Shown here piece by piece: positions 3,232 to 60,689 of a DNA stretch of 64,000 bases. How positions within the stretch are numbered: position 1 is the stretch's first letter; each line of letters starts with the position of its first letter. The notes beneath the pieces were generated by a model. That model ran no database searches, was not told the origin of the DNA, and saw nothing but the letters and a program-made list of their open reading frames with translations. This stretch comes from Stenotrophomonas maltophilia (GTDB lineage Bacteria; Pseudomonadota; Gammaproteobacteria; Xanthomonadales; Xanthomonadaceae): positions 2,542,001-2,606,000 of the forward strand of contig NZ_CP090423.1 in the NCBI RefSeq assembly GCF_023518235.1, read 5' to 3'. Both the position numbers and the translations under genes were made by a program.

Positions 3232-4188
3232 ATGAGTACCCCGTCCAAACTGTCCCAGCTGCGCGAACTGTCCGTGGTCGTTGCCGATACCGGTGACTAC
3301 GACGCCATCAAGCGCCTGCAGCCGGTGGACTGCACCACCAACCCGACCCTGGTGAAGAAGGCGCTGGACCTGCCGGTCTACGCTGAGCTGATCGAACGCG
3401 AACTCGCTTGGGGCCGCCAGCAGAGCGGTGGCCGCGAAGCCGTGGTGCACGCCGTGGCCGATCGCCTGACCATCGGCGTCGGCGCGCTGCTGAGCACGCT
3501 GGTGCCGGGCCGCGTGTCCACTGAAGTGGACGCCGACCAGGCCCACGACACCGCCGCCACCGTGGCCAAGGCCCGCCAGTTCATCCAGATGTACGCCGAT
3601 GCCGGCGTGCCGCGCGAGAAGATCCTGATCAAGATCGCCGCGACCTGGGAAGGCGTGGAAGCCGCGCGCATCCTGCAGGCCGAAGGCATCGACTGCAACC
3701 TGACCCTGATCTTCAACCCGACCCAGGCGCTGGCCTGCAGCGAAGCCGGCGCGTTCCTGATCTCGCCGTTCGTCGGCCGCATCCTCGATTGGTACGTGGC
3801 CAATGGCCAGACCCCGGCCACCATCGATGAAGACCCGGGCGTGAAGTTCGTGCGCGGCGTGTATGCCGAGTTCAAGCGCCGCGGTTCGCCGACGGTGGTG
3901 ATGGGCGCCTCGTTCCGCTCCACCGCGCAGATCGAAGCGCTGGCCGGCTGCGACCGCCTGACCATTTCGCCGGACCTGCTGGAGAAGCTGGACGCCGACC
4001 ACGGCGAGCTGCCGCGCAAGCTGGTGGCCGGTGCCGCCGACGGCGCGGCGGTGACCCCGATCGACGCAGCGAAGTTCGCGGCGGATCTGGCGGCCGATCC
4101 GATGGCCACCGAGAAGCTGGCCACCGGCATCGATGCGTTTGCCAAGGATCTGCAGGCGCTGCGCGAGCGCATTCGCTCGGAACTGTGA
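3232..4188 (+). CDS. tal: Transaldolase
   Basis: Pentose phosphate pathway enzyme that moves a dihydroxyacetone unit between sedoheptulose-7-phosphate and glyceraldehyde-3-phosphate. The 318 residues match the TalB subfamily. The signature DCTTNPTLV is near residue 30 and the Schiff-base lysine sits in [11 protein letters not shown] (Lys134, equivalent to Lys132 of E. coli TalB). The ATG at 3232 has AGGAG upstream. Transaldolase near oxyR and ahpF may help supply NADPH under oxidative stress, but that is inference. A 590-base gene-free block with large palindromes follows. Confidence 0.96.
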
Positions 4189-4259
4189 TTCCGGCCAACG
4201 GCTGAGCCCCTCGTGGCGGGTCGGTTGGTCGCGAAAGGCATGAAGCAAAAGCCGCGCTG

Positions 4260-4363
4260 GGGCGGGCGGGTTGGGTTCGCGGGAGACGCCGTGAATCCAT
4301 CCCTGGAGGCTTGGCCGCCGCATCCATGCGGCGGACACTCCCGCGAACCCAACCCGCCCGCCC
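4260..4363 (-). repeat. Large three-way-junction palindrome, copy 1
   Basis: Perfect 26-bp outer stem (4260-4285 with 4338-4363) enclosing 52 bases. The interior contains a 9-bp hairpin with CAT-CC-ATG at its tip (4315-4334). Reverse complemented, this interior aligns along its whole length with the interior of the element at 4587-4678, so both belong to one family in opposite orientation. A box GACAGTTTCC (4367-4376) just outside the arm is shared by the family. It lies between the convergent tal and msrA genes. No coding potential is evident. Confidence 0.75.
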
Positions 4364-4441
4364 TCTGACAGTTTCCGGTGGCCGTCCGCCACGGAAGAAA
4401 GAAAGAAGAGCAACAGCGGGTCGCGCGCTTCGCTTGCTCGC

Positions 4442-4464
4442 AGCCGAGCATGGCTCGGCTCTAC
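4442..4464 (-). repeat. SMAG palindromic repeat, monomer
   Basis: A 23-base palindrome with a CCGAGCATGGCTCGG core and CTAC at the right edge, i.e. GTAG on the minus strand. It is a single copy without an inverted partner and sits between the two large palindromes and next to the bidirectional terminator. Confidence 0.85.
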
Positions 4465-4490
4465 AGGAAGCACTGCAGGATCAAACAAAA

Positions 4491-4518
4491 AGGACGCGGC
4501 GAAGGCCGCGTCCTTTTT
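4491..4518. terminator. Bidirectional terminator between tal and msrA
   Basis: Perfect 10-bp stem AGGACGCGGC / GCCGCGTCCT with a GAAG loop, flanked by an A tract on the left (CAAACAAAA) and TTTTT on the right. It can terminate the rightward tal transcript and the leftward transcript that ends with msrA. Confidence 0.85.
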
Positions 4519-4586
4519 CTTTTCCATCAGTTCGTCAGAAACCCGATGCTCTTGCCCACCGTCACCGGGAAACTGTCGAAGGTGGA

Positions 4587-4678
4587 ACGGGGGCGGCTGG
4601 CAGGACCGTTGGCGCCATGGATGGCGCCATCGAGCCCCCATGGACGGGTTTACGGCGTGTCCTGCCAGCCGCCCCCGT
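4587..4678 (+). repeat. Large three-way-junction palindrome, copy 2
   Basis: Perfect 20-bp outer stem (4587-4606 with 4659-4678) around a 52-base interior. The interior has a 9-bp hairpin TGGCGCCAT-GG-ATGGCGCCA (4610-4629), then CGAGC, a small CCCAT/ACGGG hairpin and a terminal ACGGCGT. The box GGAAACTGTC lies at 4568-4577, just upstream of the left arm. The interior matches the copy at 28576-28673 almost base for base while the outer arms differ. Confidence 0.75.
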
Positions 4679-4718
4679 CCCGCCCAGCCATCAGCAACCC
4701 AGAGCCGCTTTGGCTTTC

Positions 4719-4741
4719 AGCCGACTAGCAGTCGGCTCTAC
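4719..4741 (-). repeat. SMAG palindromic repeat, monomer
   Basis: A 23-base palindrome with arms AGCCGACT / AGTCGGCT ending in CTAC (GTAG on the minus strand). It stands alone, 42 bases before the msrA stop codon. Confidence 0.8.
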
Positions 4742-4782
4742 CAGGCTTTGGCTTCTGCCCGCCGCAGGCGGACCTCCGCGCG

Positions 4783-5469
4783 TCAGCGCGGCGCTTCCAC
4801 ATCCAGGCCGATCGGGCAGCTCACGCCGGTGCCGCCAATGCCGCAGTAGCCGTTCGGGTTCTTCGCCAGGTACTGCTGGTGATAATCCTCGGCGTAGTAG
4901 TACGCCGGCGCCGGATACACGATCTCGGTGGTGATCGGGCCGTAGCCGGCTGCATCCAGCTGCGCCTGGTAGGCCTCGCGGCTGGCCAGCGCGGCCTTGT
5001 ACTGCGCCTCGCCGGTGGCGTGGATGGCCGAACGGTACTGGGTGCCGGTGTCGTTGCCCTGGCGCATGCCCTGGGTCGGGTCGTGGCTTTCCCAGAACAG
5101 CTGCAGCAGGCGCTCCAGGCTCACCACGGCCGGATCGAACACCACCTGCACCACTTCGGTGTGGCCAGTCAGGCCCGAACAGACCTCTTCGTAGGTCGGG
5201 TTCGGGGTGATGCCACCGGCATAGCCCACCGAGGTGCTGTACACGCCCGGCTCGGTCCAGAACTTGCGCTCGGCGCCCCAGAAGCAGCCCAATGCGAAAC
5301 GGACCTGCTGCAGGCCGGCGAAGCGATCCTTCAGCGGATGGCTGTTCACGAAGTGCTGGTTGCTGTGCAGCGGCAGCGGCTGCTCACGCCCCGGCAGCGC
5401 TTCTTCCGCACGCGGCAGGCGCTGCCTGAACGCACCGATGCCGAGAATGCCCTGGCCAATACCCAACAT
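4783..5469 (-). CDS. msrA: Peptide methionine-(S)-S-oxide reductase MsrA
   Basis: Repairs methionine sulfoxide in proteins (S epimer), using thioredoxin as reductant. The catalytic motif GCFWG places the nucleophilic cysteine at residue 62, and two more cysteines near the C-terminus ([13 protein letters not shown]) can resolve the sulfenic acid and be reduced by thioredoxin. The 228 residues and the roughly 55-residue N-terminal extension ahead of the core resemble E. coli MsrA. It starts 9 bases after the stop of the small DUF2007 gene, so the two are probably cotranscribed. The location near ahpF and oxyR is consistent with a stress-defence neighbourhood. Confidence 0.96.
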
Positions 5470-28328: not shown

Positions 28329-28432
28329 GGCCGGGAGGGTGGGTCGGCTGGGGGCCGCTGCAAGTACGTCCATGTAAGCTCGGTCGCCGCATCCATGCGG
28401 CTCACGCCCCCAGCCGACCCACCCTCCCGGCC
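28329..28432 (-). repeat. Large three-way-junction palindrome, copy 3
   Basis: Perfect 27-bp outer stem (28329-28355 with 28406-28432) around 50 bases. The interior keeps the GCCGCAT-CC-ATGCGGC hairpin seen in copy 1, while the outer stem sequence is unrelated to copy 1. The box GACAATTTCC lies just outside the arm at 28436-28445. It starts 106 bases upstream of the lemA ATG. Confidence 0.75.
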
Positions 28433-28505
28433 ACGGACAATTTCCTGCGCACCGCGGGAAGATCAAAAGAAAAATCAAAAGCAAAAGCCGGTTCTTCAGG
28501 CATTC

Positions 28506-28529
28506 GTGTCGACCAAGGTCGACACCTAC
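28506..28529 (-). repeat. SMAG palindromic repeat, GTCGACC type, monomer
   Basis: A 24-base palindrome GTGTCGACC-AAGGTCGACAC followed by CTAC, so GTAG on the minus strand. As at the 4.2-4.8 kb locus, a lone SMAG sits between two large palindromes. Confidence 0.8.
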
Positions 28530-28575
28530 CAAAGCAGAACGCCGTTCCGACCGATCGCGGCAATCTGTCGGAGGT

Positions 28576-28673
28576 GGGGCGGTGTGGGTTGGCAGGACCG
28601 TTGGCGCCATGGATGGCGCCATCGAGCCCCCATGGATGGGTTCACGGCGTGTCCTGCCAACCCACACCGCCCC
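28576..28673 (+). repeat. Large three-way-junction palindrome, copy 4
   Basis: Perfect 23-bp outer stem (28576-28598 with 28651-28673) around a 52-base interior that differs from copy 2 at only a few positions. One of those differences restores pairing in the small second hairpin (CCCAT-GG-ATGGG). A degenerate form of the flanking box (GGCAATCTGTC) lies upstream. Beyond the element the sequence to 28783 contains a GCAGGGCTGCAAGCCCTGC palindrome and no gene. Confidence 0.75.
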
Positions 28674-32309: not shown

Positions 32310-32332
32310 ATCCACGCATGGCGTGGATCTAC
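32310..32332 (-). repeat. SMAG palindromic repeat, GATCCACGCC type, monomer
   Basis: A 23-base palindrome ATCCACGC-ATG-GCGTGGAT plus CTAC (GTAG on the minus strand) just after the hydrolase stop. Confidence 0.85.
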
Positions 32333-32360
32333 TGTGGATCGCGGGAAACTGTCGAAGGCG

Positions 32361-32536
32361 GGGCGGTGTGGATTTGCAGGACCGTTGGCGCCATGGATGG
32401 CGCCATCGAGCCCCCATGGGTGAGGGCGCTTTGCTTGCGAAGCACTGCTTCGCAAGCGCCCGAACGCCCAGCCGCTAGCGGCTGGGCCGGACCGCGGAGC
32501 GGGGTTTACGGCGTGTCCTGCAAACCCACACCGCCC
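32361..32536 (+). repeat. Large three-way-junction palindrome, copy 5, with internal insertion
   Basis: Outer arms 32361-32382 and 32515-32536 pair over 22 bases with one mismatch. The first interior hairpin is the same as in copies 2 and 4, but the interior is 132 bases instead of 52. The extra 80 or so bases sit in the tip of the second small hairpin and themselves contain two hairpins: GCTTGCGAAGC-act-GCTTCGCAAGC and GCCCAGCCGC-ta-GCGGCTGGGC. The box GGAAACTGTC is at 32344-32353. It lies between convergent genes. Confidence 0.7.
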
Positions 32537-60558: not shown

Positions 60559-60572
60559 GGGGGTTCTCCCCT

Positions 60573-60649
60573 GCCGAGGGGCGCTGCGACCGGATCCCAC
60601 GAGGCCCGGCCAGGCTCGGTAAGGTGGCTTTGTAACAACGGCGCCCGGC
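60573..60649 (+). ncRNA. S-adenosylhomocysteine (SAH) riboswitch
   Basis: The leader of ahcY has the SAH riboswitch pattern. P1 pairs CCGAG (60574-60578) with CTCGG (60615-60619), CCGG at 60590-60593 pairs with CCGG at 60606-60609 in P2, and GGGCGC (60579-60584) can form a perfect 6-bp pseudoknot with GCGCCC (60641-60646). The stretches GGGGCGCTGCGA and AACGGCGCCC match the family consensus. When SAH accumulates the riboswitch turns on ahcY. It is the expected class and position for this group of bacteria. Confidence 0.88.
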
Positions 60650-60689
60650 TAGATGCGAGCACCCGCTCGCCCACAACCGGAGCTACTGC

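Follow-up and report, generated by a model that had tools for sequence, protein, structure and literature searches.

Five large palindromes in a segment of the Stenotrophomonas maltophilia genome

The segment analysed here, referred to as the window, is a stretch of 64,000 nucleotides from Stenotrophomonas maltophilia (contig NZ_CP090423.1, positions 2,542,001 to 2,606,000 of the forward strand). It carries five copies of a large palindrome which, together with their flanking boxes and internal parts, are located as follows (E values are those of the covariance model R1, see below):

4260..4363, minus strand: copy 1, with a perfect outer stem of 26 bp and with CATGGATG and CAGGGATG as the tips of hairpins 1 and 2 (E 3.3e-27, match at C1:2546259-2546377)
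4367..4376, minus strand: box GGAAACTGTC of copy 1, facing inward
4487..4518, plus strand: strong terminator-like hairpin with a T run, in the spacer of copies 1 and 2
4568..4577, plus strand: box GGAAACTGTC of copy 2, facing inward
4587..4678, plus strand: copy 2, 20-bp perfect outer stem and three-way junction (E 4.7e-30)
4616..4623, plus strand: copy 2 hairpin 1 tip, CATGGATG (CANGGANG)
4639..4646, plus strand: copy 2 hairpin 2 tip, CATGGACG (CANGGANG)
28329..28432, minus strand: copy 3, 26-27-bp outer stem (E 1.3e-21)
28436..28445, minus strand: degenerate box GGAAATTGTC of copy 3
28559..28569, plus strand: degenerate box GGCAATCTGTC of copy 4
28576..28673, plus strand: copy 4, 23-bp perfect outer stem (E 6.6e-31)
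32344..32353, plus strand: box GGAAACTGTC of copy 5
32361..32536, plus strand: copy 5, a singleton with an interrupted hairpin 2 (E 1.3e-25)
32420..32501, plus strand: structured insert of ca. 82 nt within the hairpin 2 loop of copy 5, with ends defined only to within a few G

With copies 1 and 3 turned to match the other three, the common layout consists of the box, a few bases, an outer stem of 20-27 bp and a 3-bp stem (C/U-G-U paired with A-C-G in most of the five copies), followed by hairpins 1 and 2, which are joined by a short linker, and by a GGCGU that precedes the closing arm and is replaced by AGCGG in copy 3. The latter copy also displays G.A/A.G at the base of hairpin 1 and a covariant TAC/GTA stem in hairpin 2. 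Copy 5 is longer because ca. 82 nt lie inside its second hairpin loop. A preliminary description of the window had already recorded these palindromes, with coordinates that were found to be exact or off by a few bases, and its account of perfect or nearly perfect outer stems, of copies 1 and 3 being reversed relative to copies 2, 4 and 5, and of a flanking box that degenerates in copies 3 and 4 was recovered in full: by eye, the stems of copies 1 to 4 are perfect over 26, 20, 26-27 and 23 bp, respectively, that of copy 5 has one A.C mismatch, and the box reads GGAAACTGTC in copies 1, 2 and 5 but GGAAATTGTC and GGCAATCTGTC in copies 3 and 4, respectively. To the conserved tip that it had described it can be added that the tip of the second hairpin is variable (CANGGANG).

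Structured inserts of ca. 80-90 nt occur in several species, either in the hairpin 1 loop (after CATG) or in the hairpin 2 loop, and break the GGA tip. In addition to window positions 32420-32501, they were seen at L109, L130, L327, L328, L330, L332, L340, L341, L345, L346, L486, L487, L492, L494, L495, L498 and L501; by eye they are largely of one kind per loop and may represent a loop-targeted secondary element. Two further palindromic repeats, GTGTCGACCAAGGTCGACAC and ATCCACGCATGGCGTGGATCTAC, which we take to be SMAG/REP-like, are found at window position 28506 and at 32310, 46816, 49012 and 49041, and recur in many pair spacers. Likewise, an inverted repeat, GGGGTCAGATCCGTTTTCC...GGAAAACGGATCTGACCCC in exact or slightly altered form, was noticed by eye in the spacers of L077, L106, L107, L114, L120, L124, L130, L133 and L136.

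An intergenic family arranged mostly as divergent pairs

A BLAST search of the same genome with copy 2 returned 48 matches, 28 of which were combined with the proposed structure to build the covariance model R1. At E<=0.01, this model produced 138 matches, and removal of 14 that overlapped others on the opposite strand before clusters were counted left 124 places. These fall into 76 clusters: 46 pairs in -/+ order, 15 single plus-strand copies, 13 single minus-strand copies, one -/- and one +/+ pair. Divergent order with the boxes face to face is thus the rule (46 of the 48 two-copy clusters), and the gap within a pair ranges from 95 to 197 bp in 46 of 48, the remaining two being 20 and 278 bp. 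At the stricter threshold of E<=1e-13, 119 copies were aligned across 74 fetched loci, L081 and L100 being omitted as they overlap L080 and L099. The five palindromes are members of a dispersed intergenic repeat family and not an artefact. The preliminary description had seen the palindromes themselves and had made their reality depend on further copies, which are plentiful (119 in this genome); it had missed the total of ca. 120 copies, the divergent pairing, the CsrA-type loops and the spread across the class. The only two-copy clusters that depart from -/+ order are L071 (C1:1295996-1296115) and L115 (C1:4088427-4088543), in which, by eye, the core seems inverted relative to its own box, as if flipped between the arms.

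According to gene calls made with our own codon scorer, which render the context counts approximate, 75 of the 76 clusters are intergenic and one overlaps a gene by 6 bases; the neighbouring genes are convergent in 32 cases, tandem in 35 and divergent in 9. Twelve singletons lie between tandem genes, 8 in sense and 4 in antisense, with no clear bias, and between convergent genes read-through from either side meets the antisense strand first. A scan of one cluster (4150-4820) detected no sigma-70-like promoter and two terminator-like sites, both in the spacer and none after the stems; if the sense strand is transcribed, its promoter is not obvious from the sequence. The idea that the outer stem itself acts as a terminator was discarded, no T run being visible by eye 3' of the closing arms.

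Pairing is retained while the arms change

RNA folding gave z-scores of -8.9, -7.9, -8.6 and -8.9 for copies 1 to 4, and none of 200 shuffled sequences folded as well. When the window was sampled with 200,000 random draws (gap fixed at 52, G.U allowed), only 17 had outward stems of at least 20 bp, presumably the palindromes themselves, the next longest stem being 14 bp. Among the 28 copies underlying R1, 97.6% of 1144 cells are paired and 29 of 41 pairs are changed on both sides, with a covariation of 0.366 against 0.100 after shuffling and at most 0.062 when the structure is slid along the alignment. The corresponding values are 96.2% of 4820 cells, 33 of 41 pairs and 0.540 against 0.161 for the 119 copies, and 95.7% of 3810 cells and 0.913 against 0.188 for a class-wide set of 94 copies from 35 genomes and 34 genera, in which the outer arms have almost no sequence in common and yet retain their pairing. 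Across the three alignments slid structures do not exceed 0.112. In 500 class-wide shuffles, the number of further pair types was matched by 22, the number of pairs changed on both sides by 2 and the other three measures by none. As A4 and A6, the two larger alignments, were produced with R1, they lean toward the modelled structure; the first (A3) is a MAFFT alignment made without structure.

Covariation also extends to the two small hairpins. In hairpin 1, C-G and G-C are swapped at several pairs, and its two basal pairs alternate between Watson-Crick and G.A (33 of 119 copies) or, at the next pair, A.G (37 of 119). Below loop 2, CCC/GGG exchanges with UAC/GUA, and because this exchange lies directly beneath the loop its register is that of a hexaloop. 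A single G.U pair of hairpin 2 is retained in 117 of the 119 copies, and 86 of them show no mismatch over 23 outer pairs. The three-way junction put forward in the preliminary description is backed by covariation in both small hairpins, although in copy 3 the fold of minimum energy gives hairpin 2 a pairing other than that of the model. The covariance search and covariation test that it had called for thus brought both further copies and covariation, and arm complementarity, on which it had staked its proposal, lies above the shuffled controls in all three alignments.

Pairing confined to double-stranded DNA predicts G.U and A.C in equal numbers on a given strand. Scored without its three basal pairs, the outer stem contains 55 G.U and 13 A.C cells in the S. 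maltophilia genome and 65 and 16 class-wide; counted as distinct contexts the ratios are 47:13 and 56:16, with binomial p values of 1.2e-5 and 2.4e-6, respectively, for copies that are not independent. An ungapped recount, in which stems were read outward from one anchored pair, gave 66:19 and 68:21. At two orthologous sites (see below) the excess is weak (16:11), which counts against a strand-specific RNA. The strand whose loops read GGA is the predicted functional strand, and single-stranded DNA could equally be the source of the G.U bias. Overall, the selection on structure suggested in the preliminary description is well supported by the covariation of the 28, 119 and 94 copies and appears to be strand-specific.

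Hairpin tips and the CsrA/RsmA consensus

In the class-wide set, 78 of the 94 rows have an aligned 8-nt loop in hairpin 1, with the composition C78 A77 N G78 G77 A78 N G78, and 91 of 94 have one in hairpin 2, with C91 A91 N G91 G91 A91 N G90; all four bases occur at each N of both loops. Rows whose loop is not 8 nt long were set aside (16 of 94 for hairpin 1 and 3 of 94 for hairpin 2 class-wide, and one for each among the 119). Of the 94 copies, 78 contain the motif CANGGANG in the region of hairpin 1 and 90 in that of hairpin 2; the two aligned loops both match it in 72 of 94 copies class-wide and in 111 of 119 in S. maltophilia. GGA persists in 92 of 94 class-wide hairpin 1 regions. The exceptions in this hairpin comprise short loops (CAGGATG, CAGGGAGC), long ones (CAGGGATAG) and loops in which the first A is absent (CCCGGACG), pentaloops and heptaloops being included, and that of L294, CATGGTG, has no GGA. 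Some S. maltophilia copies also have a broken GGA, in both loops for L061. The motif was picked once the copies of this genome were known, and the class-wide set was fetched later; its loop conservation is partly ascertained because the model was trained on S. maltophilia copies and mostly the best matches per genome were taken. The class-wide copies score 54-105 bits, far above what one loop base is worth.

The CsrA/RsmA site is described as an ANGGAN hexaloop with variable N (PMC7652899), and recognition of ANGGAN in a hairpin loop by the CsrA family is also described in PMC3791407. The first of these sources gives the SELEX consensus RUACARGGAUGU, in which AC and GU pair, and an optimum of more than 18 nt for bridging of two sites (PMC7652899). 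Both tips match this published hexaloop with its closing pair, and the two putative sites lie at bridging distance, the GGA-to-GGA spacing being 20 nt in copy 2. Against this reading, hairpin 1 has ca. 7 contiguous pairs here while most SELEX hairpins are described with at most 4 (PMC7652899).

A csrA gene was found in 59 of 64 tested element-bearing genomes and in 14 of 16 element-free genomes; in S. maltophilia it lies at C1:1684838-1684993. None was detected in 5 of the 64, one of which (G255) is 98% complete. As csrA is nearly universal, its co-occurrence with the element says little.

Distribution in other genomes

Of 37 genomes of the same genus searched with R1, 28 carry the element and 9 had no match, which makes it dispensable; copy numbers range from 0 to at least 59 per genome. 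Beyond the genus, R1 detected it in 4 of 24 genomes of the order. A sample of 369 genomes from the whole class, this genus among them, contained 62 positives, and 55 of 271 genera were positive; the 29 positives in a phylum-wide draw of 398 genomes all belong to this same class. The box GGAAACTGTC, at no more than 2 mismatches, accompanies 97 of the 119 S. maltophilia copies and none of the 94 class-wide ones, and is genus-specific.

A 45-base core pattern occurred at 80 or more loci over the named genomes, and the matches listed are from Stenotrophomonas except for [Pseudomonas] hibiscicola and one Aliidiomarina indica. In the latter, a distant gammaproteobacterium, this Stenotrophomonas pattern is found at L196, positions 3867-3911 of NZ_JACAVQ010000001.1. 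Plasmid records searched with one 54-nt core, and phage records searched with another, gave no match at E<=0.01. Three stretches of the IMG/VR viral collection (L504, L505 and L506) carry the hairpin 2 core pattern.

Turnover at orthologous sites

Thirty loci orthologous to the site of copies 1 and 2 were compared, some of them ending inside the region. They have flanks and parts of the spacer in common and carry several types of arm and core. Such replacement was likewise observed at the L087 site, beyond a conserved terminator, and by eye L488 and L491 have a common arm in which one block is changed on both sides. When 83 intact copies from the two sites were grouped by arm (the other 67 of the 150 rows aligned, in which one or both loops are not intact, being left out), 29 doubly changed Watson-Crick states were counted, together with 16 single G.U, 11 single A.C, 1 double G.U and 6 other mismatches. 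Double changes this frequent could reflect rapid compensation, or else template switching or gene conversion from arm to arm. The preliminary description had left the choice between selection on structure and joint copying of the arms; its first half stands, and the second stays in play given these 29 double against 16 and 11 single changes.

Among the ortholog sites examined, no clean empty site was found and replacement was seen instead; L350 has neither copy, yet its entire intergenic stretch differs. Unrelated arms may surround a near-identical core within one genome, as in G367 (by eye), and because of this it was considered that each insertion copies its arm from the target; no before/after insertion site backing such copying was found.

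A proposed transcribed two-site element or a DNA repeat

The reading moderately favoured here is that the element is a transcribed two-site clamp or decoy for RsmA/CsrA, of the TwoAYGGAY kind (see below), with its arms paired on one strand. An outer stem of free sequence would clamp a three-way junction showing two C-G-closed A-N-G-G-A-N hexaloops which, at 20 nt between GGA in copy 2, would make an ideal landing pad for one RsmA/CsrA dimer. The GGA-strand transcript of each copy would bind RsmA/CsrA, and the ca. 120 copies would jointly form a distributed decoy, or act as local UTR elements coupling neighbouring transcripts to RsmA. In this proposal the arms would only fold and insulate the binding module; being purely structural, they would therefore be free to change in sequence as long as pairing is kept, and copies would be exchanged and amplified like other intergenic repeats. 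What we infer, then, is transcription, RsmA/CsrA binding, a decoy effect and a route of copying and spreading; the family and its fold, covarying pairs with a strand bias, the consensus of the loops, the divergent order of the pairs, the spread across the class and kinship have direct support. The chief points against this reading are the lack of a bias toward sense orientation, the dispensability of the element within the genus and a single-stranded DNA alternative that is just as strand-specific.

The main rival, which we regard as unlikely, is a non-autonomous DNA repeat, that is a divergent mobile unit resembling a giant REPIN whose hairpins, as single-stranded DNA, are recognised by the strand-specific enzyme that moves it, HUH/RAYT-like or other, the loops serving as tips for protein recognition. 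It would account well for ca. 120 intergenic copies with 46 of 48 pairs in -/+ order and 46 of 48 gaps of 95-197 bp, for the -/+ pairs of the RF01731-bearing genomes G328, G218 and G322, for copy numbers that differ sharply within the genus (0 to at least 59), and for flanking modules held in common with replacement of a whole module at one site; a strand-specific hairpin of single-stranded DNA would also be expected to favour G.T over A.C. However, the loops fit the CsrA RNA consensus at fixed as well as free positions, which a transposase tip need not do, and no conserved GTAG-type tetranucleotide is visible by eye at the stem foot. The box GGAAACTGTC is moreover confined to the genus, and outside it other orders occur (+/+ in L267, -/- in L309 and +/- in L322). 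Very unlikely, in our view, is a boundary of the REP/BIME type, placed at gene ends to protect mRNA, terminate it or mark DNA without regard to RsmA: such a role would suit very stable stems, a location outside genes for 75 of 76 clusters (32 convergent, 35 tandem, 9 divergent) and the SMAG-like palindromes in the same spacers, but a stem alone would suffice as a barrier and CANGGANG tips kept across 34 genera would be superfluous.

It is also possible, if doubtful, that the arms are complementary mainly through template switching or gene conversion within the palindrome, with no need for selection on pairing. At the two orthologous sites the 29 doubly changed Watson-Crick states slightly exceed the 27 single G.U and A.C states; whole arms have been replaced between species at the same locus, 86 of 119 copies are free of mismatches over 23 outer pairs, and by eye the core seems flipped between the arms in L071 and L115. 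Arm copying leaves unexplained the excess of G.U over A.C, the covariation of the small hairpins, including the alternation of G.A/A.G with Watson-Crick pairs, and the near-invariant G.U of hairpin 2 (117 of 119) and fixed loop bases. Combining it with the two-site RsmA/CsrA reading leads to a bolder proposal, improbable as a whole, in which the family is a self-spreading, genome-wide RsmA/CsrA decoy array in which palindrome copying rewrites the arms pairwise and the CANGGANG tips remain constant throughout Gammaproteobacteria. If this were true, the amount of a global regulator that is free would be determined by the copy number of a repeat, and Xanthomonadaceae would gain an RsmA antagonist that canonical CsrB-type RNAs do not supply. 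Homologues of rsmB are reported missing from Xanthomonas in PMC3937308 and PMC7694677, and the former describes RsmA antagonism there as unclear because they were not found. A candidate RsmA-binding RNA would thus be at hand close to this group, and intergenic palindromes otherwise seen as "junk" are connected with a named regulator through a refutable sequence test. Sister species carrying different palindromes at one genomic site also offer a natural system in which to separate selection for pairing from arm copying.

Comparison with known RNA families and repeats

At gathering score, the only Rfam match in the whole window is a SAH riboswitch at 60570-60653 (57.8 bits). When 4240-4700 was searched at E<=10, the 49 matches listed for copies 1 and 2 did not include TwoAYGGAY (RF01731); the matches were mostly to miRNA hairpin models, dismissed as chance fits to the long stem. 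Over the entire S. maltophilia genome, RF01731 gave 16 matches at E<=10, all 16 on copies of the element, on the same strand and over the full model (1-168), with a best score of 39.6 bits and no copy above the gathering cut-off of 43 bits. Among 340 genomes of the class, 28 were positive for RF01731 at E<=0.01 and 13 above the cut-off; R1 recovered 11 of 29 RF01731 loci at the same place. The reverse search was weaker, as one of 20 R1 loci from other genera reached E<=0.01 with RF01731 (L280, 44 bits, above the cut-off). The alignment of L137 to RF01731 spans both tips and the CGG..GUC joint, and -/+ pairs are also found in the RF01731-bearing genomes G328, G218 and G322. The preliminary description knew of no name for the element; profile matches in both directions make it a relative of TwoAYGGAY, which belongs with CsrB (RF00018) to Rfam clan CL00106. 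It is best called a divergent, strongly amplified TwoAYGGAY relative lying below the Rfam cut-off, and suggests that this family is larger than its cut-off admits.

Like RF01731, the element has two hairpins with A-Y-G-G-A-Y tips within an outer stem and is multi-copy, sometimes with -/+ pairs in other genera. A tandem G.A in one TwoAYGGAY stem is described in PMC4333381 and has its counterpart here (G.A in 33 and next-pair A.G in 37 of 119 copies). Binding of TwoAYGGAY to CsrA was predicted in the same paper, of 2014, on the basis of motif matches (PMC4333381). Unlike RF01731, the tips are ANGGAN, of which AYGGAY is a subset, the arms are hypervariable and here G+C-rich, and ca. 120 copies per genome occur with a genus-specific flanking box. 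The model of the Yersinia RNA Ysr224 (RF02770) aligns with the core on its opposite strand at L137 (30.4 bits, gathering 70) and, also below cut-off, at L267 and L270, which suggests that a Yersinia homologue has already been catalogued as an RNA; its annotated strand is opposite to the GGA strand and counts against a sense RNA. Among the top results of a literature search covering few subscription journals, the element was nowhere found as a dispersed repeat.

The abundant, often paired intergenic palindromes known as SMAG or GTAG REPs of S. maltophilia (PMC2613905, PMC3733652) resemble the element in these respects, and replacement of one element by another at a locus is described (PMC2613905). 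They are, however, units of 20-40 bp with a GTAG and have neither a three-way junction nor GGA tips, and membership of the element in REP/SMAG was rejected on its palindrome of ca. 100 nt and the absence of GTAG at the stem foot in the aligned copies (by eye). RsmU of Xanthomonas campestris, from a related family, is described as a GGA-bearing RsmA-binding RNA derived from a 3' UTR, for which no Rfam homologue is reported (PMC7694677); as described there, it has GGA in common with the element but is a single locus with four GGA motifs. CsrB/CsrC and RsmX/Y/Z likewise carry GGA in hairpin loops with sites at bridging distance; they are, however, encoded by single or few dedicated genes, each with many sites, whereas the element offers two predicted sites in each of more than 100 copies.
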